A stretch of 64,000 bases of DNA from Gemmatimonadaceae bacterium (GCA_030835125.1 JAUQWM010000045.1:62001-126000); one strand, 5' to 3'; shown: positions 5,358 to 21,810, numbered from the stretch's first letter. Made by a program: numbers and translations. The notes: generated by a model not told the origin, from the sequence alone.

Positions 5358-5552
5358 ATCACATGTTCACGGAATGTTGGTGCCGCCCGTGGGAGGGGCA
5401 ACCTCCCTGCGGCGGTCTTGTGCGCGCGGGTGTGTGCTGGCCGGGTCCAGCCGGGTGACCGGGGAGCCCGGACCGGCGGTCCTTCTCGTCGCTTGAACTG
5501 GAACTGACTCAGAGGCGCTCTTCGCGTCGTGTCATTCGGACGGAGGTGTCGT

Positions 5553-7388
5553 TTGGAGGGATCAGCTTCTCGCGAAAGATCGCGCCGGAGCCTGGCCCGA
5601 AGCGGTGGGGCTGACCTGACTACCGGACTTCGCGGAGCTGCAGCGGCAACCACGGCCGACAGTGCGCTCATTCCGCTGCTCGTTCTGGCGGCTGTCCAGG
5701 GTGGGTACTTGCTGGCCGCCGCGTCTGCATCCCCAACCCGTCGCGTGGTTGGCGTGTGTCTTCTGGTGGTTTCGCTGGCAGAGTGGTGGCGTCCTTGGCT
5801 GTCCTCACGATTCCCAAAGTTGGGGCAGCGCGTCCTTGCAGCGGCTTGCTTCGCGAACTTCCTGACAGCCGCTATTCTGGAAGGTCCGTTGGCGGAGGTA
5901 CCACTCGTCCAAGCCCTCGTCATATCCGCATACACCGGATTCCTGTTGGCAGCAGTGGCTGATGCCTTCGGTGTCCTGGGTGTCCGTCGAGGAAACGCCC
6001 TTGCGACAGCGTTTGTCCTGGTCCTCGTAACGCTCGAAGCCGCGCGGGAACGCCTGCCGATTGCCCAGGAATACGGCTCCACGATCGAGGGTGACGTATA
6101 TCCCACTGGAGACGGGGGACCGCGACTCCGGCCCGGCACCACTGCTGTCACATTCTTCGAGTCCGATCCGCGAGGTTACTTCGAAGACCCTGAGGCTTGG
6201 AGGAGAGCCTGGAAAATCCAGGTCAATGATGTTGAGAGTGCCGCCCGGCTCCAGTTTCCAGACGCGCCGGTGGAGGTGCTCCGTGTGGTCGTCGAGCAAA
6301 CATCGAGGCGGAACGCCTGGACGGTCGAACTGGTCGCGGAACCGGTCGCCATGCGACGCGACGAGCAGTATGTCGCGACATTTCGTGCCCGCGCTTCAAG
6401 CTCGGGGTCGGTGACCATCAATGTCGGCCTGGCTCGTCCCCCATGGAGCAATCTTGGTCTCGCCGAGTCGTTCGTGGTCGACACACTCTGGAAGGACTAT
6501 CGCTTCCCGTTTGCACCGTCGGCGACCGATGCGTTGGTGAAGCTGTACTTCGATTTAGGCATGATGACCGACGGCGACACCGTGGAGTTCGCGCGAGTCA
6601 GCGTTCGTGGATCATCAAGCGAGAAACGGCTGGTTCCGCCGGTACCTGCTCCTTCCGTGACGTACCGCCTGAACGACCTCGGTTGCCGCAGCCGAGGCGT
6701 CCCTGGGGAGCAACAGCCCGGGTGGCGCCGCATCTTGATCGTTGGCGGCGCGTCGGCGCTTGGCGTCGGAGTCCACGAGGAGGATGCCCTCGCGTCCCGA
6801 ATCCAGGCGAGGCTCAGCCCCGACAGCACTGCCCAGCGCGGCGTGGAAGTCATCAACTGCGGTTTTGCCGGAACGCGCTCGGGAGATGCACTGCAGTTCT
6901 TCCAGCGTGTCACGCGAGCATATGCACCGGACGCCGTAGTTCTCGTCGCCGGCCTGAGCGAGAGCGTGCGCGTGATCCCGGCACGATCCACCGCTGGCCG
7001 CAAGCGGGTGCAGGCCCTTGCCCGGATGTTTCGCGGCCTGACCGCTGTGGCCGCATCGTGGCGCGCACGACGGGACCATCCGTGGGCTGCCTGGACTGCG
7101 AGGGAGCTTTCTGCGGTTGCCGATTCCCTGCGCGGCACGCACCTAGGCGTGATTGTACTGCGCACCGACGAGGATCAGGCGTGGTCTCTGCTGCTCGCCG
7201 CGACCCGAATGGCAGCCGAGCAGAATGCGATACCATGGCTGGACGCCGGACCCGCCCTCCTCGATCGGTTCCGATCGTGGGCGTTGGTGGTACACCCAGC
7301 GCAAGACCCACGGCCGAATGAACGCGCCCATGCCGCAGCTGCAGACACCGCCGTGGCGCTGTTGAGAGAGCTCCTGCGTGCACCATGA
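5553..7388 (+). CDS. Membrane-anchored SGNH-hydrolase-like protein
   Basis: The N-terminal third holds several hydrophobic segments; the middle is a beta-rich domain; the last 220 residues are an SGNH/GDSL-like domain. The block-I motif reads VGGASALGVGV (the expected nucleophile Ser is about residue 401 from this start), with Gly-Ala in place of the usual Gly-Asp. The block-V region reads DPRPNERAH, whereas the family has D-x-x-H-P-N, so the catalytic His appears to be missing. TTG 5553 is preferred over the in-frame GTG 5529 because a strong GGAGGTG ribosome-binding site sits 6 nt upstream of it. The gene overlaps the MBOAT gene by 11 nt, so the two are probably co-translated. SGNH proteins beside MBOAT acyltransferases usually assist O-acyl transfer to glycans; this one may be a non-catalytic partner. 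Confidence 0.7.
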   Translation: MEGSASRERSRRSLARSGGADLTTGLRGAAAATTADSALIPLLVLAAVQGGYLLAAASASPTRRVVGVCLLVVSLAEWWRPWLSSRFPKLGQRVLAAACFANFLTAAILEGPLAEVPLVQALVISAYTGFLLAAVADAFGVLGVRRGNALATAFVLVLVTLEAARERLPIAQEYGSTIEGDVYPTGDGGPRLRPGTTAVTFFESDPRGYFEDPEAWRRAWKIQVNDVESAARLQFPDAPVEVLRVVVEQTSRRNAWTVELVAEPVAMRRDEQYVATFRARASSSGSVTINVGLARPPWSNLGLAESFVVDTLWKDYRFPFAPSATDALVKLYFDLGMMTDGDTVEFARVSVRGSSSEKRLVPPVPAPSVTYRLNDLGCRSRGVPGEQQPGWRRILIVGGASALGVGVHEEDALASRIQARLSPDSTAQRGVEVINCGFAGTRSGDALQFFQRVTRAYAPDAVVLVAGLSESVRVIPARSTAGRKRVQALARMFRGLTAVAASWRARRDHPWAAWTARELSAVADSLRGTHLGVIVLRTDEDQAWSLLLAATRMAAEQNAIPWLDAGPALLDRFRSWALVVHPAQDPRPNERAHAAAADTAVALLRELLRAP

Positions 7389-9894
7389 ACCACTAGGTGC
7401 AGCTGAGGTGTCTCCGGCGCGAACGGGCGCCGGAGAGCATGACCTTCGTTCCGGCCAACGTGTCCTGGCTATTGGAGTGGTGGCTGCCCAGCTGGCTGTG
7501 GTAGTTGCGCTGGTGTACGCGTTCAAGCTCGAGTCGCGCACCTTTTTCGACATCCTGCTCTTGGCGTGCGGCGGCTTCGTCGTCAGCGCTATCCTGCCGG
7601 CGCGGCATCGGCTCTGGTTCTTCGCGGCCCTGTCGATGCTCTCCGTCGTGCTGGTGGTGGGCCCCGATGCGGCGAGTGCCGTGCTGGCCCTGGGACTCCT
7701 CATCATTGTCGTGTGCCATCTTCCGCTGCGATTTCGCCTCCGGGTGGGACTCGTGGTCCTTATCGGCGTTGGCTTGGCGATCCTGCGCCATCGTGGCAAC
7801 GGGGCCCTGGCGCTGGACGTACTCGCCGCGATGTTCATGTTTCGAGTTGCACTCTACCTGTACGCGCTGCGCCATACGAGTGAGACGTTCCACCCGTCAA
7901 CTGCGCTGGCGTACTTCTTCATGTTGCCGAACGCCTGCTTCCCCCTCTTCCCGGTGGTTGATCTCGATGCATTTCGTCGAGGTAGCGTCGATGAAGAGGA
8001 GCTGGCCACCTATGAACGTGGCTTACGTTGGGTCTTTCGAGGGCTTGCACAGCTGCTGCTGCTGCGCATCGTCACTTTCCGTCTGGCCATCGACGACCTT
8101 GCCGTCAACGACCTTGGGGACATCGTCAGGTATGTGGTAACATGCTTCCTCCTCTATCTCGACGTCTCGGGGAAGTTTCACCTGATCGTTGGCCTGGTGA
8201 GTCTCTTCGGATTCAGGATGCCGGAGACGCATCATCGGTACTTCCTCGCCTCGAGCGTGATGGACTTCTGGAGACGGATCAACATCTACTGGAAGGACTT
8301 CATGACGAAGCTGGTATACCTTCCGGCGTACTTTGCGCTTCGTCGTCATGGCACGCGACTCGCAATTGCCATGTCCACCGGCGCGGTGTTCGCCGCCACT
8401 TGGGCGCTCCATTCCTATCAGGAATTCTGGCTCCTGGGGAAGCCGCGAGCTTCGTGGCAGGACGCGTCCTTCTGGGCGGTGTTTGGCGCGTTCATGGTGG
8501 TGGCCAGCTTGCGCACAAAGCGCCCGGAGGATGGTTGGTCACGCGGGCCCCTGTGGAGCAGAGGTCGTGCGGTATCGACCCTCTTCACCATGCTGGGGAT
8601 CTTCCTTCTGTGGTCCTACTGGAACGCGCAGTCGGCTGAAACCTGGCTCTATCTCTGGACGCGCGCGCGCTTCGTGTCCGGAGCAGACGTGCTGCTGCTG
8701 ATCGCAGTCGTACTCGGGTTTGCCATCATAGCCGGGTTCAACTGGGATGCCCAGCGAGGGTCGGGCGCTGATGAACGAACGGCTTTCCACAAGGTTGTCA
8801 AGCACGGTGTGATTCGCGGGACCGCCGGAGTGCTCCTGGTCACGACGACGCTCCCGCCTGTCTTCGCGCAACTTCCCTTGCCAGTGAAGCTGATCACGAA
8901 CCACCTTCGCGGTTCCGGCGTGTCCGTCGTCGAAGAGCGCGCGCGGGTAGCAGGTTACTATGAGGGCCTTGCTGCGCCACGGAGCTCCATTCGTCGTTGG
9001 GAATCGGCGGTGCATACAGGACTCTGGAAGGACGCTCCATTTGCCGAGTTGCCAACGGGCGATTTTCTGTGGCAGACGCTGCGCCGCGGCTTTCGGGGTG
9101 TTGTCGGTGACAAAGAGGTCAGTGTGAATCAATGGGCAATGCGCGACCGTGAGTATAGCCGTGAAAAACCGCCCGGGACTTTCCGCATCGCACTGCTGGG
9201 CCCGTCGGATGTCATGGGTTGGGGAGTTGGCGATGACGATGTATTCGAGGGGAGGGTGGAGCGCTCGTTAGACAGCCTCGCCGCGGAACATGGCAATCGC
9301 GTTGAGATCCTGAACATCAGTGTACCCGGTTGGTCCCTGCCGCAGCAGGTGCATGCCATCCGGGCGATTGCCGCTCCATTCTCACCGGACCTGGTGTTAC
9401 TCACCGTTCACTCGAACGAAATCGATTTCGTCGCGAGTCGCCTCGCGGACCTGGTGAGTGGCGGGATTCCCGTGCCGGATTCGATCCTCTCCGGGATGAT
9501 CGACGAGGTGAAGATTGCAGCAGGCATGGGACGTGACCACATCGCTCGACTCCTTCGCCCGGTTGAGGATCGGTGGCATGCTCGAGTCGTCGCTTGGGCG
9601 AAGGAGTCTGCTGCGGGGGCGGAAGCGCGGCTCGCAGTAATGGAACTTCGCCTTCCGGCATCGCCTCGCAATCCGACCGTCAAACCCCTGCGACGCGCGA
9701 TCAACGAAGCAGGGGTTGAATGGCTCGACTGCGCCGATCCCTATCGCGGGCATGACGAGGTCGCGCTGTGGGTCGGTCCGGGTGACAACCACCCGAATGC
9801 CGCTGGGCACGCATTGATCAGTCACTGCGTCCTGCAACAACTGATGGCCCGTCCACACCTCCTGCCCATCTGGCAACGGAGTGCCCGAAGGTGA
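7378..9894 (+). CDS. MBOAT acyltransferase fused to an SGNH domain
   Basis: This is an 838-residue fusion. Residues 1-470 are a polytopic MBOAT domain: the motif FWRRINIYWKDF is at about 297-308 and a candidate catalytic His is at about 345 within TWALHSYQEF, matching the two conserved MBOAT elements of AlgI and DltB. Residues about 600-838 form an SGNH domain with nucleophile Ser at about 610 (GPSDVMGWG), a block-III-like VHSNE, and a terminal GDNHPNAAGH with His at about 805. MBOAT proteins move an acyl group across the membrane from a carrier to an outside acceptor. In Dlt systems DltB (MBOAT) works with the separate SGNH protein DltD; here both activities are on one chain. The start is GTG 7378, overlapping the preceding SGNH gene. 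The acyl donor could be the carrier protein encoded at 14219-14479 (inference). Confidence 0.85.
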   Translation: MHHEPLGAAEVSPARTGAGEHDLRSGQRVLAIGVVAAQLAVVVALVYAFKLESRTFFDILLLACGGFVVSAILPARHRLWFFAALSMLSVVLVVGPDAASAVLALGLLIIVVCHLPLRFRLRVGLVVLIGVGLAILRHRGNGALALDVLAAMFMFRVALYLYALRHTSETFHPSTALAYFFMLPNACFPLFPVVDLDAFRRGSVDEEELATYERGLRWVFRGLAQLLLLRIVTFRLAIDDLAVNDLGDIVRYVVTCFLLYLDVSGKFHLIVGLVSLFGFRMPETHHRYFLASSVMDFWRRINIYWKDFMTKLVYLPAYFALRRHGTRLAIAMSTGAVFAATWALHSYQEFWLLGKPRASWQDASFWAVFGAFMVVASLRTKRPEDGWSRGPLWSRGRAVSTLFTMLGIFLLWSYWNAQSAETWLYLWTRARFVSGADVLLLIAVVLGFAIIAGFNWDAQRGSGADERTAFHKVVKHGVIRGTAGVLLVTTTLPPVFAQLPLPVKLITNHLRGSGVSVVEERARVAGYYEGLAAPRSSIRRWESAVHTGLWKDAPFAELPTGDFLWQTLRRGFRGVVGDKEVSVNQWAMRDREYSREKPPGTFRIALLGPSDVMGWGVGDDDVFEGRVERSLDSLAAEHGNRVEILNISVPGWSLPQQVHAIRAIAAPFSPDLVLLTVHSNEIDFVASRLADLVSGGIPVPDSILSGMIDEVKIAAGMGRDHIARLLRPVEDRWHARVVAWAKESAAGAEARLAVMELRLPASPRNPTVKPLRRAINEAGVEWLDCADPYRGHDEVALWVGPGDNHPNAAGHALISHCVLQQLMARPHLLPIWQRSARR

Positions 9895-11609
9895 GGCTCG
9901 CAACCAGGCAATGGATTGGCCGAGCTCCCGTGTGGCTTGGTGTGACGATGGCCATTGCACTCCTGCCATACGTCGTGCTCATCCCTGAGGTCGTGCAGTT
10001 CTATCCAGATGTCGTGCACGATGACGCCGTCAACTTCGTGGTCTGGTTGCGACGGACGCTTGACCCGGGCCTGTTCCCAAACGACCCGATTGCCAGAGAC
10101 ATGGCGGCAGTCACGCCGTGGTTCTATGCAGCACTCTTCAGGCCCTTTGCCGCCATGGGGATCGACCCCGTGTTGACGCATATCGCGGTCGTGATGCCGC
10201 TATCGGGTCTCTTGCTCGCGTTCAGCGCCTTCGTCGCGATCAACAGGTTCTGGCAATTTCCACCTGGCGCCTGCGTGGCGACGCTGATTCTCGTGTGGCT
10301 CGTCGGCACTCCTCAGGGGCTTCCTCGCGACTTCGGGTACGCGATCGTTCTCCTCGCAGTCGTCGGTTTCGAGTCCAGGCGGGCCGCCCTGACCGGCCTG
10401 GGTCTGTTCCTTGCGGCTGGCCTCCTTCCAGCTGCGGCCCTCGTCAGCGGCGTTGCGATGTCCCTCCTCATGCTGGCACCTCGTCCCAGGTACGTCACGA
10501 GGGAACGTCTGGCCTGGAGAACGCTGCTGGCAGCTGGTGGGGGCGCCGTTGCCGGTGGTCTGGTGGCCATCGCCCGCAAGGCAGGATCGGGCGCCGCCAT
10601 CTCGCTCGCGGAGGCCAGGACCATCCCGTTTTTTGCTTCGTATGGCCGTCGCCCTTTCTTCGGGGAGACTTTTGCATCGACATACGGCTGCAATGAGCGG
10701 GCCGGACTCCTGCCGCTTTGCGAGGGCGGTCCAGACGCATGGATAATCACCTGGGGGTTGCTGGTGGCCGGACTGCTGGTGGGAGCGATCTGGTTCGTTT
10801 CCAGCGGGGCTGCAGGCCGCTGGTTCCGGGCCGTCGGGCAGCCAATGCTCGATCGGCGGATCGCTACGATCTGGGTGACGTTGCTCGCCACCGGGTGCCT
10901 TCTGTTCATCCTCGCCCACCGAGTTGCGTTCTCCCTCCACATGCCGGAACGCTATTCTCGCTACTCAATCACTCTGGCTTTCGCCCTTGCCACCGCGATC
11001 ACGGCCACCAGCTTGGCCAGCGTCGGCGTGGCTTGGACCACGAAACGCGGGTATTGGCGGCAATTCCGCTGGCCGCTGGCCGCGGCCGCCTCGATCCTCG
11101 TCGCATTCGCCGCGGTCCGGGAGGGACGACGCATACACCTCGTTCTCGGGGACGCTCCCGCGATCTTCGATTTTCTCCGTCGAACGCCGAAGGAAACGGT
11201 CGTCGGTGGCGTTCTGTTCGAGACGGACTACGTGCCGGCGTTCAGCAGCAGGGCAGTACTCGTCTCGATGGAGTTGCTCACTCCGTACCATATGTCTTTC
11301 TACAATGAAATGAGCAAGCGTGCGATAGATATCGGCGCGAGCCTGTACCAGCAGACACCGCGCGCGCTTGTCGAATTGAGGAAGCAATACCGCGTGGACT
11401 ACGTCCTGGTCGAAAGGGATCCAGCGTATGTCATGCCGCTGCTCCAGATGTGGGCGAGGAACTTCCCGTCGGTCTCATCGGCGGTTGGGTTTCTCAACGA
11501 AGGGGGTGAGCCTTTCTTCCGGCGTCGACTTCCCGCCTGTGAGGTGGCGGGCAACTACCGAGTAGCCTTGGCAGATGCGGCGTGCCTCGCGGCGGATGCG
11601 CCGAGGTGA
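9891..11609 (+). CDS. Polytopic membrane protein, GT-C-like
   Basis: The 572-residue protein has many hydrophobic helices. An early extracytoplasmic loop contains acidic pairs (FYPDVVHDDAVNF, then PGLFPNDPIARD), typical of GT-C glycosyltransferases, where an acidic residue in the first loop binds metal or acceptor. The C-terminal 120 residues are soluble and contain YRVDYVLVERDP, resembling the tail of the membrane protein at the left window edge. The start GTG 9891 overlaps the MBOAT stop by 4 nt (GTGA). It is probably a lipid-linked sugar transferase or a related polysaccharide membrane enzyme; the assignment rests on topology and context only. Confidence 0.65.
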   Translation: MRLATRQWIGRAPVWLGVTMAIALLPYVVLIPEVVQFYPDVVHDDAVNFVVWLRRTLDPGLFPNDPIARDMAAVTPWFYAALFRPFAAMGIDPVLTHIAVVMPLSGLLLAFSAFVAINRFWQFPPGACVATLILVWLVGTPQGLPRDFGYAIVLLAVVGFESRRAALTGLGLFLAAGLLPAAALVSGVAMSLLMLAPRPRYVTRERLAWRTLLAAGGGAVAGGLVAIARKAGSGAAISLAEARTIPFFASYGRRPFFGETFASTYGCNERAGLLPLCEGGPDAWIITWGLLVAGLLVGAIWFVSSGAAGRWFRAVGQPMLDRRIATIWVTLLATGCLLFILAHRVAFSLHMPERYSRYSITLAFALATAITATSLASVGVAWTTKRGYWRQFRWPLAAAASILVAFAAVREGRRIHLVLGDAPAIFDFLRRTPKETVVGGVLFETDYVPAFSSRAVLVSMELLTPYHMSFYNEMSKRAIDIGASLYQQTPRALVELRKQYRVDYVLVERDPAYVMPLLQMWARNFPSVSSAVGFLNEGGEPFFRRRLPACEVAGNYRVALADAACLAADAPR

Positions 11610-11655
11610 CACAACGGCTCTCGATGTATCGTGCCCGCGTCAAACCGGCGGTGAG

Positions 11656-12618
11656 ATGCGTTTCCTAATCGCAGGGCTCGGATCGATTGGACAGCGTCAC
11701 CTGCGGAACCTGATTGCACTGGGGGAGCGCGACATTGTGTTGCTCCGGACGGGACGCGGCGCGCTCCCCCTCAGCGACGAGTTCTCCGGTCTCACGGTGG
11801 AGACGGACCTCGCGCGTGCACTCAAGCGGGGGCCGGACGCCGTCCTCGTGGCAAATCCCACCGCCTTTCATCTCGATATCGCGATCCCGGCAGCTCGAGC
11901 CGGTTGTCACCTGTTGATCGAGAAGCCGGTGAGCCACACGGCGGACGGGCTGGAGGCACTCACCGACGCTGTCTCGGGCGGCGGAGGCGAAGTCCTGATC
12001 GGCTATCAGTATCGATTCCATCCCCTTCTGGCCCGAATGCACGAGGTGGCGCGGGCCGGGGGGCTGGGCACTCTGCGATGGGCCATCGCACACTGGGGTC
12101 ACCACCTCCCGGACTGGCATCCGTGGGAGGACTACCGGACGGGGTACGCCGCACGTCGGGACCTTGGTGGAGGTGTGCTGCTGACGCTGAGTCATCCGCT
12201 CGACTATCTGCAGTGGATCGTCGGTCCTCTCACTTGCTCACAATCCAGAATCCAGGTCCTGGGCGGACTTGCGGTCGATGTGGACGACTACGTCGATCTC
12301 TGGTTGCAGCGTGACAACACGTTCACCGCCGCGGTGCACCTCGACTACTACCAGCGGCCAGCGGAGCACTGGTTGGCGTTAGGCGGCGACAGTGGAAGCC
12401 TGCGGCTCGACTTTATCAAGGGAAGACTGGTCGGCGCAACTCATGACATAGACGTGGATATGGGCGTCGCGCCCGGCTTCGATCGGAACGACATGTATCT
12501 TGACGAGATGAGGCACTTCCTGAGGGTGGCGAAGGGCCTGGAAGCGCCGGCCTGCAACCTGAATGACGGCCTTGCGTCACTGCGACTTGTACTCTCTGCG
12601 CGCGCGAACCAGGTCTGA
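11656..12618 (+). CDS. Gfo/Idh/MocA family oxidoreductase
   Basis: The 320-residue protein starts MRFLIAGLGSIGQRHLRN, the NAD(P)-binding GxGxxG fold. It has the family motif Glu-Lys-Pro (LIEKPVSHT), where the Lys is catalytic, and later LGGGVLLTLSHPLDYLQW, matching the substrate-side GG-x-x-x-D/H-x-x-x-H pattern. ATG 11656 is used because the Rossmann fold begins there; the frame is open upstream only into the previous gene. Members of this family occur in legionaminic-acid-type nonulosonate loci (the PtmF type of Campylobacter), and the downstream SDR, CMP-sugar synthetase and NeuB-like genes fit that context. It is convergent with the adenylating ligase (32 nt apart). The exact substrate is not decided by sequence. 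Confidence 0.8.
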   Translation: MRFLIAGLGSIGQRHLRNLIALGERDIVLLRTGRGALPLSDEFSGLTVETDLARALKRGPDAVLVANPTAFHLDIAIPAARAGCHLLIEKPVSHTADGLEALTDAVSGGGGEVLIGYQYRFHPLLARMHEVARAGGLGTLRWAIAHWGHHLPDWHPWEDYRTGYAARRDLGGGVLLTLSHPLDYLQWIVGPLTCSQSRIQVLGGLAVDVDDYVDLWLQRDNTFTAAVHLDYYQRPAEHWLALGGDSGSLRLDFIKGRLVGATHDIDVDMGVAPGFDRNDMYLDEMRHFLRVAKGLEAPACNLNDGLASLRLVLSARANQV

Positions 12619-12650
12619 TTGCCACCGCATTCCGCCCGATTCCTGTCAGG

Positions 12651-14222
12651 TCACGAGCCTGGGTCCCGGGTGCCAAGGGATTGCAGGTCGACCTTTCCGG
12701 TAGAGGTCATCGGGAATGAGTGCAGGACCTCGAACTGATCGGGAATCATCCAGAGCGGCAGATGCGCCGAACAGTACTTCTTGAGGTCGACCACTGACGG
12801 CCTTTCGGCCCCCCTCAGCGTCACATGGGCGACGATGACGGTCTGTCCTCGAGAGTCCACGCGAGTCGACGTAACGACTGCGCCGAGTTGAGGGTGATGG
12901 CTCAGTGCGGCCTCGATCTCGGCCAGTTCGATGCGGTAGCCCCGCCGCTTGATCATTCGATCGCGTCGCCCGTGGAAGTGGAGCACACCCCGCTCGTCCC
13001 GGCTTGCCAAGTCTCCCGTCTTGTACCAGAGTCGCTCTTGGCTGTCCTTCTGTAACGCGCGCGCTGTCAGGTCCGGCCTGTTCCAGTACCCGGTCATGGT
13101 GGTGGGGCTGCAAATCAGCAGCTCACCGACCTCGCCCGCCCCCGCCATGCCACCACAGTCGGCCTCTACCATCACTATCACTCCAGCGCACGGTTCGCCG
13201 ATCGGCAGTGAGGGCTCCCGGTCAAAATCGAAATCGGGCGGGACTTCGAACCACGTGACGACATTGGTTTCGGTCGGTCCGTACAGGTTGCAGTAGCGTG
13301 GCGCGGGCCATGCCCTCGTAAGGCGCCTGAGTTGGGGGAGCGGGAACACCTCGCCTGCGAACAGGACGAGGCGCAGGGCGCCGCTCGGGGTCTCCTCGAG
13401 ACGGCCATGGTCGAGCAGCATCCTCAGGGTTGTGGGCGTGGAGTACCAGATCGTGATGCCCCGTGACGCGATGCACTCAACGAGCAATCGAGGGTTCGCG
13501 ACCACCGAATCGTCCAGCAGGAGCACGCTGGCGCCTGCACGCATGGGGACAAACAGGTCGAAGATCGATAGGTCGAAGTGAAAGGGAGCATGAGACGCAA
13601 CGCGATCGCAGGGGTTGGGCGCGAACGACGCTATCGCCCACTGGACGAACGACTCAACCGCGCGTACGGGTATCACCACTCCCTTCGGTCCCCCCGTCGA
13701 TCCCGAGGTGTACAGGATGCACGCCGCTGAATCCGGGCTTGTCGGGTGACCCCCCTGCGTCCCTGTAACAGGCACGCCACTCTGAACGAGCCACTCCTGA
13801 ATTCCCGCTCCTCCACCGACGCCCGTCAACAGGTGCACCTGCATGGCTGCGTCGAGCGCGGCAAGTTCCTGGCGCAGCACCTCACCGGACGGTCCGCCGG
13901 TCAGGACAGCCCGCGCACCGCAGTCCACGAGGATGCTCGCTGAACGCGCAGCGGGTGCCGCGGCGTCGAGCGGGACATAGATGCCCTCGGCGTGGAGGAT
14001 CCCGCATATGGCCGCGACGGCATCGACTGACTTCCTGAGGTGAACTCCAACACGATCCCCCGGCCTCACCCCGAACTCCCGAAGCGTCTCCGCGATCCGT
14101 GTGGCGAGCGACGCAAGCGCACCGTATGTCGTGGTCCGGCCGTCCATTTCCACGAGGAAGACAGCATCCGGCGACGACCGGGCGTGTTCCGCGAGGGCAA
14201 CCAGCAGAGCGTTACCGCTCAA
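12651..14222 (-). CDS. Amino-acid:carrier-protein ligase (AMP-forming, DltA/PltF-like)
   Basis: This is a free-standing adenylation enzyme of 523 residues with core motifs in order: YTSGSTGGPKG at 171-181 (ATP loop), FDLSIFDLF at 216-224, YGPTETN at 314-320, TGD at 402-404, GRRDRMIKRRGYRIE at about 418-432, and the catalytic Lys at 510 in STGKVD. It would activate a carboxylate as the AMP ester and load it on the carrier encoded just upstream. Asp 217 at the start of the FDL motif is the residue that holds the amino group in amino-acid-activating enzymes. The pocket I read (D, L, F, T, L, A, L, V, V) is nearer DltA and prolyl ligases such as PltF than fatty-acyl ligases, but this alignment is from memory. 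TTG 14222 overlaps the carrier stop by 4 nt, indicating coupling. Confidence 0.85.
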   Translation of the reverse strand: MSGNALLVALAEHARSSPDAVFLVEMDGRTTTYGALASLATRIAETLREFGVRPGDRVGVHLRKSVDAVAAICGILHAEGIYVPLDAAAPAARSASILVDCGARAVLTGGPSGEVLRQELAALDAAMQVHLLTGVGGGAGIQEWLVQSGVPVTGTQGGHPTSPDSAACILYTSGSTGGPKGVVIPVRAVESFVQWAIASFAPNPCDRVASHAPFHFDLSIFDLFVPMRAGASVLLLDDSVVANPRLLVECIASRGITIWYSTPTTLRMLLDHGRLEETPSGALRLVLFAGEVFPLPQLRRLTRAWPAPRYCNLYGPTETNVVTWFEVPPDFDFDREPSLPIGEPCAGVIVMVEADCGGMAGAGEVGELLICSPTTMTGYWNRPDLTARALQKDSQERLWYKTGDLASRDERGVLHFHGRRDRMIKRRGYRIELAEIEAALSHHPQLGAVVTSTRVDSRGQTVIVAHVTLRGAERPSVVDLKKYCSAHLPLWMIPDQFEVLHSFPMTSTGKVDLQSLGTRDPGS

Positions 14223-14479
14223 CCTCGTCCGCCCTTCTGTCGAACGGTCGATTCTATGGCCACCAGCGTATCGAGGTGTGCTCGATCGACCTCATGTGCG
14301 GCGAACTCAATCGAGTAGCGATTCTCGAGGAACGTCACGAGTTCGAGGACGCTCAATGAGTCGAGGATCCCGGTGGAGATCAACGGCGTCGTGGGCGTCA
14401 GCGCTCCAGCTGCCTCGCCGGGGAGGAAACGATCGAGGATGAATTGCCGGGCGGCTTCAACGATGGCGGAGTCACTCAT
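14219..14479 (-). CDS. Acyl/peptidyl carrier protein
   Basis: The 86-residue acidic helical protein has the 4'-phosphopantetheine attachment motif LISTGILDSLSVLELV; Ser 41 in the Asp-Ser-Leu core is the modified residue. Its length matches stand-alone carriers such as DltC and PltL. It lies between the acyl-CoA-dehydrogenase-like gene (47 nt upstream) and the adenylating ligase (4-nt overlap downstream), so the three form a compact operon: dehydrogenase, carrier, ligase. That order and composition suggest the ligase loads an acid (probably an amino acid) onto Ser 41 and the flavoenzyme oxidises it while tethered. No phosphopantetheinyl transferase is seen in the window. Confidence 0.88.
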   Translation of the reverse strand: MSDSAIVEAARQFILDRFLPGEAAGALTPTTPLISTGILDSLSVLELVTFLENRYSIEFAAHEVDRAHLDTLVAIESTVRQKGGRG

Positions 14480-14526
14480 GATAAGGGTAAGTGAACGGGC
14501 TGAACAAGGACTCGGGTCAATCGTGG

Positions 14527-15678
14527 CTAGGTGAGCTTCAGTCCGAGCGAGCGCCCAATGACCAGACGCTGGATATCAGAAGTCCCGGAATAGATCGTGC
14601 TGCCCAAGGCGTCTCGGACCTCTCGCTCGACGTCGTCTGTCGTATAGCCATAGCCCCCTCGGATTTCCATCGCCAGGATAGCGCACCGCCGATAGGCCTC
14701 GCTCACCACGAGCTTCGCGATGGCCCCCAAGGTCGTTCCATCAGATCCATGCTCCTTCTCCCACGCGGCCCGGTAGAGGGCGAGCCGGGCCTGTTCCAGG
14801 TGAATCTTCATATCGATCAGGCGATGCGCGATCGCGCCGAAGGCGGCGATGGCTCGCCCAAATTGATGCCGCTCGCGAGCGTACTTCGTCGCGTCGTTGA
14901 GAAGCCGGTCCATGGCGCCCACAGCTCCCGCCAGGATGCAGGAGCGCTCCCATTCGATCGAGTCACGAAAGATCTGTGCCCCACGACCTTCGAGGTTCAA
15001 GCGACTGGATTCCGGAATGACGCAGTCGTCGAATGTCAGCGAGGCCATGGGCGACGTTCTCAGTCCGAGCTTCGGCGTGGGCGGTCCGACGACCAAGCCC
15101 GGTGTCGAGCGATCCACCAGGAACGCCGACAGCGCCATCGGACCGGGGTCCGATCCCGTGCGGGCAAACACGACGAATACGTCGGCAACGGGAGCTTGGC
15201 TGACGAAAACCTTCGTGCCGTTGAGTCGGTAGCCCTGGCCGATTCGTCGTGCGGATGTGCTGATGCTGAACGCGTCCGATCCGGATTGTGCCTCCGACAT
15301 GGCGTGGGCGCCGACAAGGTCTCCGCAGCAGAGTGCTGGCAGGTAGCGATGTTTCTGTTCCTCGCTGCCGAAACGAAGTATCGGCATTTGCACGCTCCAC
15401 ATCTGGGCGCCGATGGCGAAAATAAGCCCGTTGTCCGCGCAGCCTTGACCGAGTGCCTCCAGTGCCATCACCGTCGTGAGCGCGTCCCGCCCTCCTCCGC
15501 CGTACACCTCAGGGAAGGGCAGTCCCAGGATCCCGAGGCTGGCGCAGTGACGCCAATGGTCGCGGGGGAACGTGGTGTCGGGGACTGGTGAGGCGGCGCG
15601 GTCATGCAGGTGTTCGCGCGCGAACTCCAAGATGCGCCTTCGGAGCTCCCCTTGTTCTGCCGAAATCGTGAAGTCCAT
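14527..15678 (-). CDS. Acyl-CoA-dehydrogenase-family flavoenzyme, carrier-bound acyl oxidase candidate
   Basis: The 383-residue protein has the normal ACAD layout: helical N-domain, beta domain with SEAQSGSD and DDCVIP, and C-terminal helices with RHQFGRAI and GGYGYTTDD. The usual catalytic Glu site near the C-terminus reads IYSGTSDIQ, with Ser instead of Glu. A Glu is instead present at residue 244 in EWERSCILAG, the position used as base by isovaleryl-CoA dehydrogenase and by the prolyl-carrier dehydrogenases of pyrrole biosynthesis (PltE, RedW). ATG 15678 gives a family-length protein; the frame runs 54 codons further upstream without domain content. Together with the adjacent carrier and ligase it matches the three-enzyme pyrrole-2-carboxyl cassette, although another alpha,beta-oxidation of a tethered acyl group remains possible. 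Confidence 0.8.
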   Translation of the reverse strand: MDFTISAEQGELRRRILEFAREHLHDRAASPVPDTTFPRDHWRHCASLGILGLPFPEVYGGGGRDALTTVMALEALGQGCADNGLIFAIGAQMWSVQMPILRFGSEEQKHRYLPALCCGDLVGAHAMSEAQSGSDAFSISTSARRIGQGYRLNGTKVFVSQAPVADVFVVFARTGSDPGPMALSAFLVDRSTPGLVVGPPTPKLGLRTSPMASLTFDDCVIPESSRLNLEGRGAQIFRDSIEWERSCILAGAVGAMDRLLNDATKYARERHQFGRAIAAFGAIAHRLIDMKIHLEQARLALYRAAWEKEHGSDGTTLGAIAKLVVSEAYRRCAILAMEIRGGYGYTTDDVEREVRDALGSTIYSGTSDIQRLVIGRSLGLKLT

Positions 15679-16145: not shown

Positions 16146-16994
16146 GTGAATCTCCATGCCATGAACCCGACGGCACCCAAGAGCGTGCTCGACGCATTTC
16201 GGCTCGATGGCCGGACTGCGGTCGTCACCGGCGGCGCAGGCCTTCTCGGTCAGGAGTTGGTCCGCGCGCTGGCCGATGCCGGAGCCACTGTAACGATCGC
16301 CGATATCGACTCCGTTGCCACGACTGCCACGGTGGCGCGTCTGACCGCTCGCGGCCTGGCCGTTCGAGGCCTCCCGGTGGATGTGACATCCGCGGCGTCG
16401 GTTCGCAACCTCATGTCCTTCGCTGCAAGCGCCACCGGCCGGATCGACGTCCTGGTGAATGCGGCGGCGCTTGACCCGAAGTTCAGCCCGGGCTACGAAA
16501 GGGAGTCTGGTGCATTCGAGGACTTGTCTCTGGAAGCTTGGGAGGCGGCGCTTCGGGTCAATCTGAACGGCATGTTCCTGTGCTGCCAGGCGGTGCTGCC
16601 GATGATGCGGCACCAAGGCTCTGGTGCCATCATCAACATTGGCTCCACCTACGGACTCGTCGGCCCAGACCAGAGAGTCTACGAGCGCAGCGGCAAGGCA
16701 CCCCGATACAAGCCGGCGCACTACACGGTGACGAAGGCTGGCGTACTCGGACTCACCCGGTATCTGGCCGCCTACGTCGCCCGCAGCGGCGTTCGCGTCA
16801 ACTGCCTGACGCCTGGCGGTATCTTCGACAACCACGATCCCGAATTCGTCGCAGCATACTCGGCGCGAACGGTGCTCGGGCGCATGGCGGAGCGGGACGA
16901 ACTGAACGGGGCCGTGCTCTTCCTCGCGTCGGATGCGTCGTCGTACATGACCGGCGCCAACCTCGTGGTGGATGGAGGCTGGACCGCGTGGTGA
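16146..16994 (+). CDS. Short-chain dehydrogenase/reductase of the nonulosonate operon
   Basis: This is a 282-residue classical SDR. The cofactor motif TGGAGLLG is at about 28-35, an NAA-type stabilising motif (VLVNAAALD) follows, and the catalytic Ser (INIGSTYG) precedes Tyr and Lys in HYTVTK. The C-terminus reads YMTGANLVVDGGWTAW, the usual SDR ending. GTG 16146 gives the longest form; ATG 16161, five codons in, is equally possible and neither has a good ribosome-binding site. It is coupled to the CMP-sugar synthetase through a GTGA overlap. SDRs of this kind (PtmA type) sit beside NeuA/NeuB homologues in flagellin and surface-glycan loci; the exact oxidation or reduction step is inference. 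Confidence 0.85.
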   Translation: MNLHAMNPTAPKSVLDAFRLDGRTAVVTGGAGLLGQELVRALADAGATVTIADIDSVATTATVARLTARGLAVRGLPVDVTSAASVRNLMSFAASATGRIDVLVNAAALDPKFSPGYERESGAFEDLSLEAWEAALRVNLNGMFLCCQAVLPMMRHQGSGAIINIGSTYGLVGPDQRVYERSGKAPRYKPAHYTVTKAGVLGLTRYLAAYVARSGVRVNCLTPGGIFDNHDPEFVAAYSARTVLGRMAERDELNGAVLFLASDASSYMTGANLVVDGGWTAW

Positions 16995-17737
16995 CCTCAC
17001 CGGCCGTGCTCGCGGTGATCCCGGCTCGCGGCGGATCGAAATCGATTCCCGGGAAGAACATCCGGCCATTCGGAGGCCACCCACTCATTGCATATAGCAT
17101 AGCAGCTGGGCTGCGGGCCGCCCGAGTCACTCGCGTTGTCGTCTCGACGGACGATGCGGCAATCGCTGAGGTAGGACGGCACTATGGGGCCGACGTGCCG
17201 TTCATGCGACCATCATCACTTGCCCAAGATGAGACGCCGGACCTGCCGGTCTTCAAGCACGTCCTCGCCGAACTCGAGGCGCGCGAGGGATTCCGTCCTG
17301 CCATCATCGTCCAGCTCCGACCAACATCTCCCCTGCGTCCGCCCGGCTTAGTGGACGAGGCCATCGATCTCCTGGGGCGTCAAGCGTCGGCCGACTCCGT
17401 TCGCGGCGTAACACCGTCATCGCAGAATCCGTTCAAGATGTGGCGAATCGGGGCAAGTGGTTCACTCGTGCCGTTGCTGGACGAGGTTGAGAACGCCTAC
17501 GACATGCCTCGTCAGTCGCTACCCGCAACGTACTGGCAGACCGGTCATGTCGACGTGGTTCGCCGGGGCACCATCCTGACACAGCACTCCATGACCGGTC
17601 GTGTGATCTGGCCGTTCCAGATCGACGGTCGGTACGCCGCGGACATCGACGCACCATCGGATTGGGAGTGCGCTGAGCACCTGCTCACGAGGGGCGACCT
17701 CGACATCGTCAGGCCTGGTGGGCACAATGCGCGCTGA
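16991..17737 (+). CDS. CMP-nonulosonate cytidylyltransferase, NeuA/PtmB-like (copy 1)
   Basis: The 248-residue protein opens with the nucleotide-binding motif IPARGGSKSIPGKN (about 10-23), the signature of CMP-sialic/Kdo synthetases, then VVVSTDDAAIAEV and QLRPTSPLRPP, both conserved in this family. It would activate a nonulosonic acid with CTP for transfer. The start is taken at GTG 16991, which overlaps the SDR stop (GTGA); GTG 16988 is an alternative. It overlaps the NeuB-like gene by 20 nt, so SDR, synthetase and synthase are probably translated together. It differs clearly from the second cytidylyltransferase at 21898-22602. Confidence 0.88.
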   Translation: MTSPAVLAVIPARGGSKSIPGKNIRPFGGHPLIAYSIAAGLRAARVTRVVVSTDDAAIAEVGRHYGADVPFMRPSSLAQDETPDLPVFKHVLAELEAREGFRPAIIVQLRPTSPLRPPGLVDEAIDLLGRQASADSVRGVTPSSQNPFKMWRIGASGSLVPLLDEVENAYDMPRQSLPATYWQTGHVDVVRRGTILTQHSMTGRVIWPFQIDGRYAADIDAPSDWECAEHLLTRGDLDIVRPGGHNAR

Positions 17738-18623
17738 GACCCGCATCGGTTCACACCGGGTCGGCGATGCACATCCAACTTTTGTCGTGGCGGAGATAGG
17801 CATCAACCACAACGGCGATCTCCGCCTCGCGAAACGACTCATACGTGCCGCCTCCCGTGCCGGTGCCGATGCCGTCAAGTTCCAGAAGCGGACCCCGGAG
17901 CTCTGCGTTCCTGCGGAGCAACGCGCGACCTATCGCGAGACCCCTTGGGGGTACATCACCTATTTGGACTATCGTCACCGGGTCGAACTCGGCAGGTCCG
18001 CCTATGATGAGATCGACCGCTACTGCCGCGAGGTCGGCATCGAGTGGTTTGCGTCGGTCTGGGATGAGCCCTCGGTCACGTTCATGGAAGCGTATGACCC
18101 GCCATGCTATAAGGTGCCGTCGGCAGCGCTGACGGACCACAGCCTCCTCCACGGAGTCCGGGCCGCAGGGCGACCCCTCATCCTCTCGACGGGGATGTCG
18201 ACGATGGCTCAGATTGAGGAAGCCGTCGAGGAGGCTGGCCAGTCAGATCTTGTCATCACACACTCGACGAGCGCATATCCATGCGATCCGACGGAACTCA
18301 ACCTTCGAATGATTCCGACGTTGCGCGATCGCTTCGCGGTCCCGATCGGGTATTCCGGACATGAGGTTGGCCTCGTCACGTCGGCAGTTGCGGTGGCACT
18401 CGGCGCATCAGTGATCGAGCGTCACATCACCCTTGATCGTGCCATGTGGGGGTCCGACCAGGCGGCTTCGGTGGAGCCGGAGGGCTTCGAGCGGCTCGTG
18501 AAGTACATCAGAGTCACGCAGGCGGCTCTCGGTGACGGTATCAAACAGGTGTATTCCAGTGAGCAAGCCGCAATAGCGAAGCTGCGTCTCCGCGGGAACC
18601 AACAAGGTAGCAGTCTGGCTTGA
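17718..18623 (+). CDS. NeuB-family nonulosonic acid synthase lacking the SAF domain
   Basis: The TIM-barrel synthase family condenses phosphoenolpyruvate with a 6-carbon amino sugar to make sialic, legionaminic or pseudaminic acid. Visible family motifs are VAEIGINHNGDL, AVKFQKRTPE, STGMST, HSTSAYPC, IGYSGHEVG and ERHITLDR followed by SVEP. The protein stops after about 301 residues, just after the segment AAIAKLR. Family members normally run 330-350 residues and end with an antifreeze-like SAF domain that caps the partner subunit's active site; none is encoded here, and I saw no frameshifted remnant downstream. GTG 17718 and ATG 17727 are alternative starts. It follows the CMP-sugar synthetase with a 20-nt overlap. 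Confidence 0.85.
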   Translation: MGTMRAETRIGSHRVGDAHPTFVVAEIGINHNGDLRLAKRLIRAASRAGADAVKFQKRTPELCVPAEQRATYRETPWGYITYLDYRHRVELGRSAYDEIDRYCREVGIEWFASVWDEPSVTFMEAYDPPCYKVPSAALTDHSLLHGVRAAGRPLILSTGMSTMAQIEEAVEEAGQSDLVITHSTSAYPCDPTELNLRMIPTLRDRFAVPIGYSGHEVGLVTSAVAVALGASVIERHITLDRAMWGSDQAASVEPEGFERLVKYIRVTQAALGDGIKQVYSSEQAAIAKLRLRGNQQGSSLA

Positions 18624-20812: not shown

Positions 20813-21810
20813 CCAAGCCAGCGGGCCTCGAAGCCCGGCATTCGCTGACTGCAGTCGACCGCCGACATGCACTCAAAGCGCTTACAGTCGCTTTCAGCGC
20901 CGCGATGCTCTACCTCCTGTATCGGAGCGTCGACCTTCGGGGCGTCTTGAGAGTCTTGGAGCAGGCGGATCCCGCCCGCCTTGCGGTCGCGATCGGCATG
21001 ATTGCGCCGATCACGGTCCTGCGCGCGTACCGTTTCATGTGGCTCATGCCACGCGGAGCAGTTGCCGGGATAGCGGAGGCGACCAGGATCACGGTAGTGG
21101 CGAGCGCCTTCAACCTGTTTCTGCCGGCGAAAGCCGGGGATTTCGCCAAGAGTCTGATCGTGGCAAGGCAGGGTGGTGCTGCTGCGGGCGTATCAGCTGC
21201 GGTGGTCGTATACGAGCGTCTCTCCGACATGTTCGGTACCGTCGTATGGTGCCTGGTCGGAGCCATGGCTGTCCGTCCTGTTGCGCCCCTGCTGCCCGAC
21301 GCCACGTGGACTGCGCTCGGCGCTATTGGCACCCTGTGTGGTGTTCTCATTCTCTCCGAACGTCTTGCTGTGCTTCTCCGGCACGTCGTACACGAGATGA
21401 TCACTGCGCGCCGCCTCCAGGTGCTCCGCGTTCTCGCAGATGGATGGCCGGCGCTTATGGTCAACTTGCGAGGCTCGCGAGTGTGGCTCGGCCTGTTCTC
21501 CATCGGCCTCTGGTTTGTGCAGTTGGCGCAGATATGGCTTTTCACCGTTGCCGTTTCGGCCCAGATTCCGCTGGCGGTCTGCGCCAGCTTGTCCGCCATT
21601 GCGCTCATCGTCGCCCAGCTGCCCATCTCCATCGGCGGCATTGGGATCCGTGATGTCGCTCTGGTCCTGCTGCTTTCGCCCTACATGTCACCCGAGAAGG
21701 CCGCCGCCGTTGGCATACTTACTGCAAGTCGGGGCCTGTTTCCACCTCTCGCCGCCCTGCCGGTCCTGAGGCGGTATCTTAACTTCGTAGTTCCACGCAC
21801 GGAGCCTTGA
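20809..21810 (+). CDS. Lysylphosphatidylglycerol-synthase-TM/AglD-like flippase-domain protein
   Basis: The 333-residue protein has about eight membrane segments and the signature elements of the UPF0104/LPG-synthase transmembrane family: FLPAKAGDFAKSLIV in the third quarter of the first half, YERLSDMFG, and near the end PISIGGIGIRDVALVLLL. Proteins of this family occur in polysaccharide and lipid modification loci and are often proposed to be flippases or polyisoprenyl-sugar handling proteins. GTG 20809 overlaps the preceding transferase by 4 nt (GTGA). The frame is open upstream but reads only antisense-like sequence of the neighbour. Confidence 0.8.
   Translation: MTKPAGLEARHSLTAVDRRHALKALTVAFSAAMLYLLYRSVDLRGVLRVLEQADPARLAVAIGMIAPITVLRAYRFMWLMPRGAVAGIAEATRITVVASAFNLFLPAKAGDFAKSLIVARQGGAAAGVSAAVVVYERLSDMFGTVVWCLVGAMAVRPVAPLLPDATWTALGAIGTLCGVLILSERLAVLLRHVVHEMITARRLQVLRVLADGWPALMVNLRGSRVWLGLFSIGLWFVQLAQIWLFTVAVSAQIPLAVCASLSAIALIVAQLPISIGGIGIRDVALVLLLSPYMSPEKAAAVGILTASRGLFPPLAALPVLRRYLNFVVPRTEP

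Follow-up and report, generated by a model that had tools for sequence, protein, structure and literature searches.

A probable Dlt-like acylation system with a proline-derived acyl group in a Gemmatimonadaceae glycan locus and in related bacterial gene cassettes

The window analyzed here is a stretch of 64,000 nucleotides from a Gemmatimonadaceae bacterium (positions 62001-126000 of contig JAUQWM010000045.1, GCA_030835125.1), whose genome is 4.48 Mb long and 99% complete. It carries genes for a stand-alone adenylating ligase, a carrier protein, a flavoenzyme of the acyl-CoA dehydrogenase (ACAD) family, and a protein in which a membrane-bound O-acyltransferase (MBOAT) is fused to an SGNH domain. 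Our results suggest that these genes probably encode a Dlt-like transmembrane acylation system with an acyl group made from proline. The families of the parts, the proline-type pocket, the catalytic residues, the MBOAT-SGNH architecture and the conserved linkage are established by sequence and fold. The interpretation is supported at the level of the system and likely holds in the window, where the coupling is less certain because the ligase, carrier and ACAD trio is divergent and lies on the opposite strand. The four genes are as follows.

7378..9894, plus strand: MBOAT-SGNH fusion of 838 aa, assigned by AlphaFold and Foldseek to DltB/HHAT/PORCN and SGNH enzymes (the start may lie further in than 7378)
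12651..14222, minus strand: stand-alone adenylation enzyme, a PltF-like proline:carrier ligase (TIGR01733 above its cut-off; PltF/PigI alignment and pocket)
14219..14479, minus strand: carrier protein of 86 aa with phosphopantetheine site Ser41 (Pfam PF00550; alignment; PDB matches PltL, PigG and Bmp1)
14527..15678, minus strand: prolyl-carrier-type ACAD flavoenzyme of 383 aa (prolyl-acyl carrier protein dehydrogenases as best solved relatives; comparison of positions with Bmp3 and PigA)

An earlier note on this DNA had placed these four, the carrier with its Ser41, and an SGNH membrane protein within a 10-kb stretch of a nonulosonate glycan locus. All five are genuine long open reading frames (ORFs) at their assigned positions, and the profiles and the fold bear that description out.

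From these parts we infer the chemical steps, the extent of oxidation and the acceptor. The ligase would adenylate L-proline and charge the phosphopantetheine arm of the carrier, and the ACAD would oxidize the tethered prolyl group to pyrrole-2-carboxyl. At the inner face, the MBOAT half (His345) would move the acyl group from the carrier to Tyr528 of a flexible linker, from which the SGNH half (Ser610/His805) would pass it into an ester on a surface polymer outside. Some relatives would, ahead of transfer, halogenate the tethered pyrrole with a halogenase of the PltA type. Taken together, we propose, with confidence a little short of even, that a widespread and self-contained four-gene system of about eight phyla puts pyrrole-2-carboxyl esters, halogenated in some lineages, on surface polymers by means of a single MBOAT-SGNH chain that contains its own acyl-Tyr shuttle.

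Linkage of the four genes across genomes

In a sample of 298 Gemmatimonadota genomes (ACAD at E <= 1e-80, MBOAT-SGNH at E <= 1e-10), the ACAD was found in 12, the MBOAT-SGNH fusion in 10 and both in 7, an association with a Fisher p of 2e-9 among genomes that are related and thus not independent. The four genes are directly adjacent in three of these genomes (G205, G029 and G186), and parts of the set stand side by side on short contigs in three others (G088, G257 and G246). The window genome has a single MBOAT-SGNH gene and a single prolyl-type ACAD gene.

A scan of 84,980 bacterial species genomes gave 233 MBOAT-SGNH relatives, and 79 loci were kept. These belong to Gemmatimonadota, Pseudomonadota, Acidobacteriota, Planctomycetota, Hydrogenedentota, Myxococcota, Verrucomicrobiota, Rhodothermota, Chloroflexota and a KSB1 bacterium, and complete cassettes occur in the eight phyla other than Chloroflexota and the KSB1 bacterium. 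Neighbors were counted by tblastn, as counts from ORF tables missed genes hidden under antisense shadow ORFs, and the counts refer to the 43 loci with about 5 kb known on each side. The carrier was present in 40 of them, the ligase in 37, the ACAD in 37 (in one, L105, an ordinary ACAD) and all four genes in 36; by lineage, as grouped from record titles, all four were found in 23 of 29. The commonest order, on one strand, is MBOAT-SGNH, carrier, ligase and ACAD, and the median gaps between neighbors are 17, 8 and -1 bp.

A second sample comprised 250 genomes of the order to which an Accumulibacter genome belongs. Six of them carry the ACAD, and the MBOAT-SGNH fusion is confined to four of these. 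In the fifth ACAD genome the gene lies at a contig end directly after ligase and carrier, while the sixth has the ligase, the carrier and two halogenases alongside the ACAD and no MBOAT. The earlier note had suggested a search for such co-occurrence in Gemmatimonadota, and the four genes were found together there and in seven other phyla. The trio is not mostly without an MBOAT-SGNH partner, because four of the six ACAD genomes of the second sample carry one and all MBOAT-SGNH genomes are among them. The idea that the locus merges the Dlt and Plt logics is supported by the linkage in 36 of 43 loci together with the proline pocket and the prolyl-type ACAD.

Several loci depart from the common cassette. 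A different AMP (adenosine monophosphate) ligase takes the ligase position at L105:12508-14523, and an O-methyltransferase gene lies between carrier and ligase at L050:12769-13773, suggesting other tailored acyl groups. The fusion stands with a carrier only at L042:8440-11344 (the same as L116), and no prolyl-type ACAD was found in that genome, the best match being 244 bits. In Planctomycetota, three MBOAT-SGNH genes stand in tandem at L089:1757-10525, together with two carriers.

Loading and oxidation of the acyl group

The window ligase scored 337.6 bits against the amino-acid adenylation model (cut-off 317.4), and the solved enzymes closest to it in the pocket region are PltF (E 6e-35) and then PigI. 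The nine pocket sites, numbered as in GrsA, were read by alignment as DLLYLALVC in PltF, DLFYIAWVC in PigI and DLFYLALVV in the window ligase, which shares the Phe at the third site with PigI. The exact nine letters of PltF occur in 37 of 60 ligases, and the family consensus is identical to them. The enzyme is thus a stand-alone ligase with a proline pocket, as in the PltF/PltL/PltE type. A fatty-acid pocket, which by the earlier note would have spoken against its reading, is not supported, and a fatty-acid ligase was rejected from the pocket letters and the family score. In the carrier, D40-S41 is invariant in 25 relatives.

The best solved relatives of the window ACAD are AnaB, Bmp3 and PigA, all prolyl-carrier dehydrogenases, with AnaB the closest. 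Its catalytic Glu244 lies in W-E-R and it has Y-S-G-T at 363-366; Trp243-Glu244-Arg and Tyr-Ser-Gly-Thr 363-366 are invariant or nearly invariant in the family. Bmp3 and PigA carry W-E-[RK] and F-S-G-T, which they have in common with the cassette ACADs as W-E-[RK] and [YF]-S-G-T. Among the ordinary relatives encoded in the genomes of these ACADs, some show Y-E-R together with G-A-G-T, and others Y-E-G-T without Glu244. The ACAD of locus L105 proved to be ordinary. The solved PigA variant 6af6 is changed relative to 5zw0 precisely at the Glu244 equivalent, consistent with Glu244 as the catalytic base. Glu244 alone was rejected as a mark of prolyl oxidases, since isovaleryl-CoA-type enzymes also carry Glu there; what the cassette ACADs have in common with Bmp3 and PigA is Glu244 combined with Trp and [YF]SGT. 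Both the relatives and the motifs assign the window enzyme to the prolyl-carrier dehydrogenase type, at scores below the equivalog cut-offs of PigA (406 vs 500 bits) and RedW (401 vs 650 bits). The ACAD tree does not fix where Bmp3 and PigA join, so no clade with them is claimed, and four of its eight "generic" ACADs were wrong-frame ORFs whose branch is meaningless.

Bmp3 and PigA yield pyrrole, and the AnaB reaction halts before it. In several lineages, halogenases of the PltA type, which carry the W-x-W-x-I(P) signature, are encoded within or next to the cassettes; two stand between MBOAT-SGNH and carrier at L115, and the best solved relative of the L030 halogenase is PltA (E 9e-57). PltA works on carrier-bound pyrrole, and the linkage of such halogenases to the cassettes is therefore independent, indirect support for a pyrrole intermediate. 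The same machine might instead move a prolyl, pyrroline or dehydroproline group and give, as Dlt does, a charged aminoacyl ester, a reading favored by AnaB being the closest solved relative and by the cassettes without a nearby ACAD gene. We regard this as unlikely in view of the pyrrole halogenases and of the ACAD found at 37 of the 43 loci (an ordinary one at L105), with the active-site motifs of the pyrrole makers Bmp3 and PigA. The product would accordingly be pyrrole rather than partly oxidized proline.

Halogenases of the PltA/CmlS type were observed in or beside the cassettes at L115:5352-15821, L055:2980-11862, L047, L048 and L030, accompanied in some of these by a Na+/H+ antiporter-like gene. 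It is possible that a halogenated pyrrole reaches the surface in such loci. No halogenase was found among the window genes scanned.

The fusion, its acceptor and the window locus

A search of the genome with the Pfam MBOAT family gave no match, the fusion included, and the MBOAT claim was therefore tested by fold. The fusion matched the DltB model weakly (E 7.6e-5), at 22 bits against a cut-off of 375 for the DltB equivalog. An AlphaFold model built with 79 sequences reached a predicted local distance difference test (pLDDT) score of 86.1 and a predicted template-modeling score of 0.83, after an earlier run with 13 sequences had given only pLDDT 70. Foldseek matched the model to DltB (6bug, 8jem), HHAT and PORCN and, separately, to SGNH enzymes. 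The key residues are His345 of the MBOAT half, the linker G526-Y-Y528-E-x-L531, and Ser610, Asn646, Asp803 and His805 of the SGNH half. Conservation was read over 79-96 relatives, and 25 columns are invariant in 79 aligned fusions. These include His345, Tyr528, Ser610 and His805, the MBOAT His, shuttle Tyr and SGNH Ser/His that characterize the MBOAT-SGNH class.

Tyr528 is kept in 79 of 79 fusions, within G-Y-Y-E-x-L. In the model, two extra helices after the fusion core (435-459 and 466-489) precede it, and it opens a low-confidence stretch (526-554), which may fit a mobile linker without proving mobility. PatA and DltX bear the acyl group on a Tyr within an FXYXXF motif at the C terminus, located in PatA on two extra helices that DltB lacks, and MBOAT-SGNH pathways other than Dlt use an acyl-CoA donor and no carrier protein (PMC12148441). 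The linker motif appears to resemble this acyl shuttle, and carrier, MBOAT, shuttle Tyr and SGNH would then be joined in a new way. Alternatively, the SGNH half could hydrolyze the acyl-Tyr, so that free pyrrole-2-carboxylate is exported as a signal or antifungal. Many esterases have SGNH folds, and pyrrole-2-carboxylic acid is reported as a Lysobacter metabolite (PMC12194822). However, the characterized MBOAT-SGNH pairs are transferases (PMC12148441) and the cassettes of several genera lie in exopolysaccharide loci, making hydrolysis very improbable.

The acceptor is the weakest step of the proposal. The window cassette adjoins genes for NeuB, CMP-sugar synthetase and glycosyltransferases, and its acceptor is most likely a nonulosonate-containing glycan. 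The cassettes of Mesorhizobium and Microvirga lie amid Wzx, glycosyltransferase and priming sugar transferase genes, and several of Gemmatimonadota adjoin genes for APS kinase and for sulfatase-superfamily proteins. The four genes of Accumulibacter, Rhodoferax, Pseudothauera and others are surrounded by housekeeping genes, with no glycan genes near. The unit therefore looks self-contained in several betaproteobacteria, and a common envelope component, such as peptidoglycan, lipid A, a lipid or a protein, could be the acceptor there and in general. We consider this somewhat unlikely as a replacement for a locus-specific glycan, given the glycan or sulfation loci that hold the cassettes of the window, Mesorhizobium, Microvirga and several Gemmatimonadota.

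Arrays of sulfatase-superfamily membrane proteins of about 600 aa were also observed near the MBOAT-SGNH gene or the trio (L036:1414-6796, L042:11428-20000, L047:7871-14000 and L030:5399-7213), some of them with APS kinase and PAPS reductase genes.

The glycan locus lies in a 28-kb stretch at the left of the window that has a lower GC (guanine plus cytosine) content, 61-65% vs 66-71%; NeuB and CMP-sugar synthetase lie at 17.0-18.6 kb. The carrier stop overlaps the ligase start (TTGA), so ACAD, carrier and ligase read as one minus-strand operon, convergent with the plus-strand MBOAT side. The other features are listed below.

5529..7388, plus strand: SGNH-domain membrane protein, probably accessory (Pfam GDSL and CBM_4_9 matches, both below cut-off)
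9891..11609, plus strand: polytopic membrane protein of 572 aa, no family (ORF)
11656..12618, plus strand: GFO/IDH/MocA sugar oxidoreductase of the glycan locus (Pfam PF01408 above cut-off)
16146..18623, plus strand: nonulosonate-pathway genes for a short-chain dehydrogenase/reductase, a CMP-sugar synthetase and NeuB (Pfam PF13561, PF02348, PF03102)

The SGNH membrane protein, whose start is uncertain (5529, 5553 or 5745), has a GDSL match of E 9e-4, below the cut-off, and is about 26% homologous to the fusions in their SGNH part. Read by eye, its block V is D-P-R-P-N, compared with D-x-H-P-N in the fusion, and it is probably accessory rather than a normal SGNH transferase because the block V His is replaced. 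It retains the catalytic Ser motif despite this change and stands beside the fusion, so that it would possibly be an inactive protein next to an active SGNH. The 572-aa membrane protein gave no Pfam or NCBIfam match and possibly serves glycan assembly. A membrane protein of the LPG-synthase-TM type is encoded at 20905-21810, inside the glycan locus.

Three Gemmatimonadota loci (L032:8806-12537, L033:8845-12410 and L034:8621-12485) contain an ACAD-ligase-carrier trio with a hexapeptide-repeat acyltransferase just upstream and no MBOAT-SGNH, possibly a cytoplasmic version of the same acyl transfer.

A number of observations weigh against the proposed system. The window pocket agrees with PltF at seven of nine sites and differs at two, the window ligase and ACAD are divergent, long-branch members of their trees, and the trio lies 2.8 kb from the fusion on the opposite strand. 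The linker motif lacks the first Phe of FXYXXF and is a partial match only. Among the 43 loci, three are without the carrier, six without the ligase and six without the ACAD, and the hexapeptide-acyltransferase trios mean that the trio is not always tied to an MBOAT. No biochemistry or glycan chemistry of any member was found in the literature searched.

The divergence and orientation of the window trio, the hexapeptide-acyltransferase trios of the same phylum, and the likeness of the window pocket to the DLFYLALVC of those loci would suit neighbors that are not partners, the trio acylating a cytoplasmic sugar or making a small molecule and the fusion moving, for example, acetyl. However, no hexapeptide acyltransferase was found among the window genes scanned, the trio of Microvirga is likewise encoded on the other strand from its fusion, and a single MBOAT-SGNH and a single prolyl-type ACAD were found in the window genome. 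In the ligase tree, the window enzyme falls on the MBOAT-linked side as opposed to the hexapeptide-acyltransferase trios (90/86, on a long branch), a placement that may weakly point the same way. We therefore find unpartnered neighbors quite unlikely and retain the coupled system.

If the coupled system is real, bacterial surface acylation goes beyond acetyl, D-alanyl and similar groups, and cells use redox chemistry, in some cases with halogenation, to tailor a carrier-bound acyl group before membrane passage. Natural-product chemistry would thereby be linked to envelope modification, and a carrier-dependent single-chain MBOAT-SGNH would offer a test case for the acyl-Tyr relay. A test is practical, as Mesorhizobium, Microvirga, Pseudothauera and Paraglaciecola, which carry the system, are in culture.

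Comparison with known systems

The earlier note knew of no system with this full combination, and the literature searched, mostly outside subscription journals, likewise contained no description of pyrrole esters on polysaccharides, of an MBOAT with adenylation and carrier proteins, or of pyrrole and halogenase with an MBOAT. Among the nearest known systems is Dlt (DltA-DltC-DltB-DltX-DltD), the pathway for D-alanylation of teichoic acid, which also has an adenylating ligase, a dedicated carrier, an MBOAT and an SGNH protein, with a likely acyl-Tyr relay (PMC12148441). Unlike Dlt, the present system has a proline-type pocket, an additional ACAD, and MBOAT and SGNH in one chain; no DltX was seen, with the linker Tyr motif in its place, and the hosts are of the Gram-negative type, where teichoic acid is not expected. 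The window ligase scored 250 and 242 bits against DltA models (cut-offs 476 and 560), and the carrier 27 and 24 bits against DltC models (cut-offs 68 and 52). An MBOAT with catalytic His is present as fold and active site only, and in place of separate DltD and DltX the SGNH domain is fused to the MBOAT and the Tyr motif lies in the linker. The system works like Dlt yet fails its defining tests.

By its sequences, the front half groups with PltF/PltL/PltE, which convert a prolyl-carrier into a pyrrolyl-carrier. RedM/O/W, PigI/G/A, Bmp and Ana are similar in ligase pocket letters, carrier and ACAD motifs, with a PltA-type halogenase in some loci. These systems feed cytoplasmic pigment, antibiotic and alkaloid pathways, whereas the partner here is a transmembrane MBOAT-SGNH protein.

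The back half recalls the polymer O-acetylation systems PatA/PatB, AlgI/AlgJ/AlgX and WssH/WssI. Their MBOAT has a Tyr motif and two extra helices and is paired with an SGNH transferase, but the two are separate proteins and use an acyl-CoA donor and no carrier (PMC12148441). OatA-type AT3-SGNH proteins also fuse a membrane acyltransferase to an extracytoplasmic SGNH domain and have an invariant Tyr, but with an AT3 instead of an MBOAT fold and with acetyl-CoA as donor. In coumermycin and clorobiocin synthesis (CouN/CloN), a carrier-bound pyrrole-2-carboxyl group is ester-linked to a sugar. As would be the case here, the pyrrole-2-carboxyl group comes from a carrier, whereas that acyltransferase is soluble and its acceptor a small molecule.

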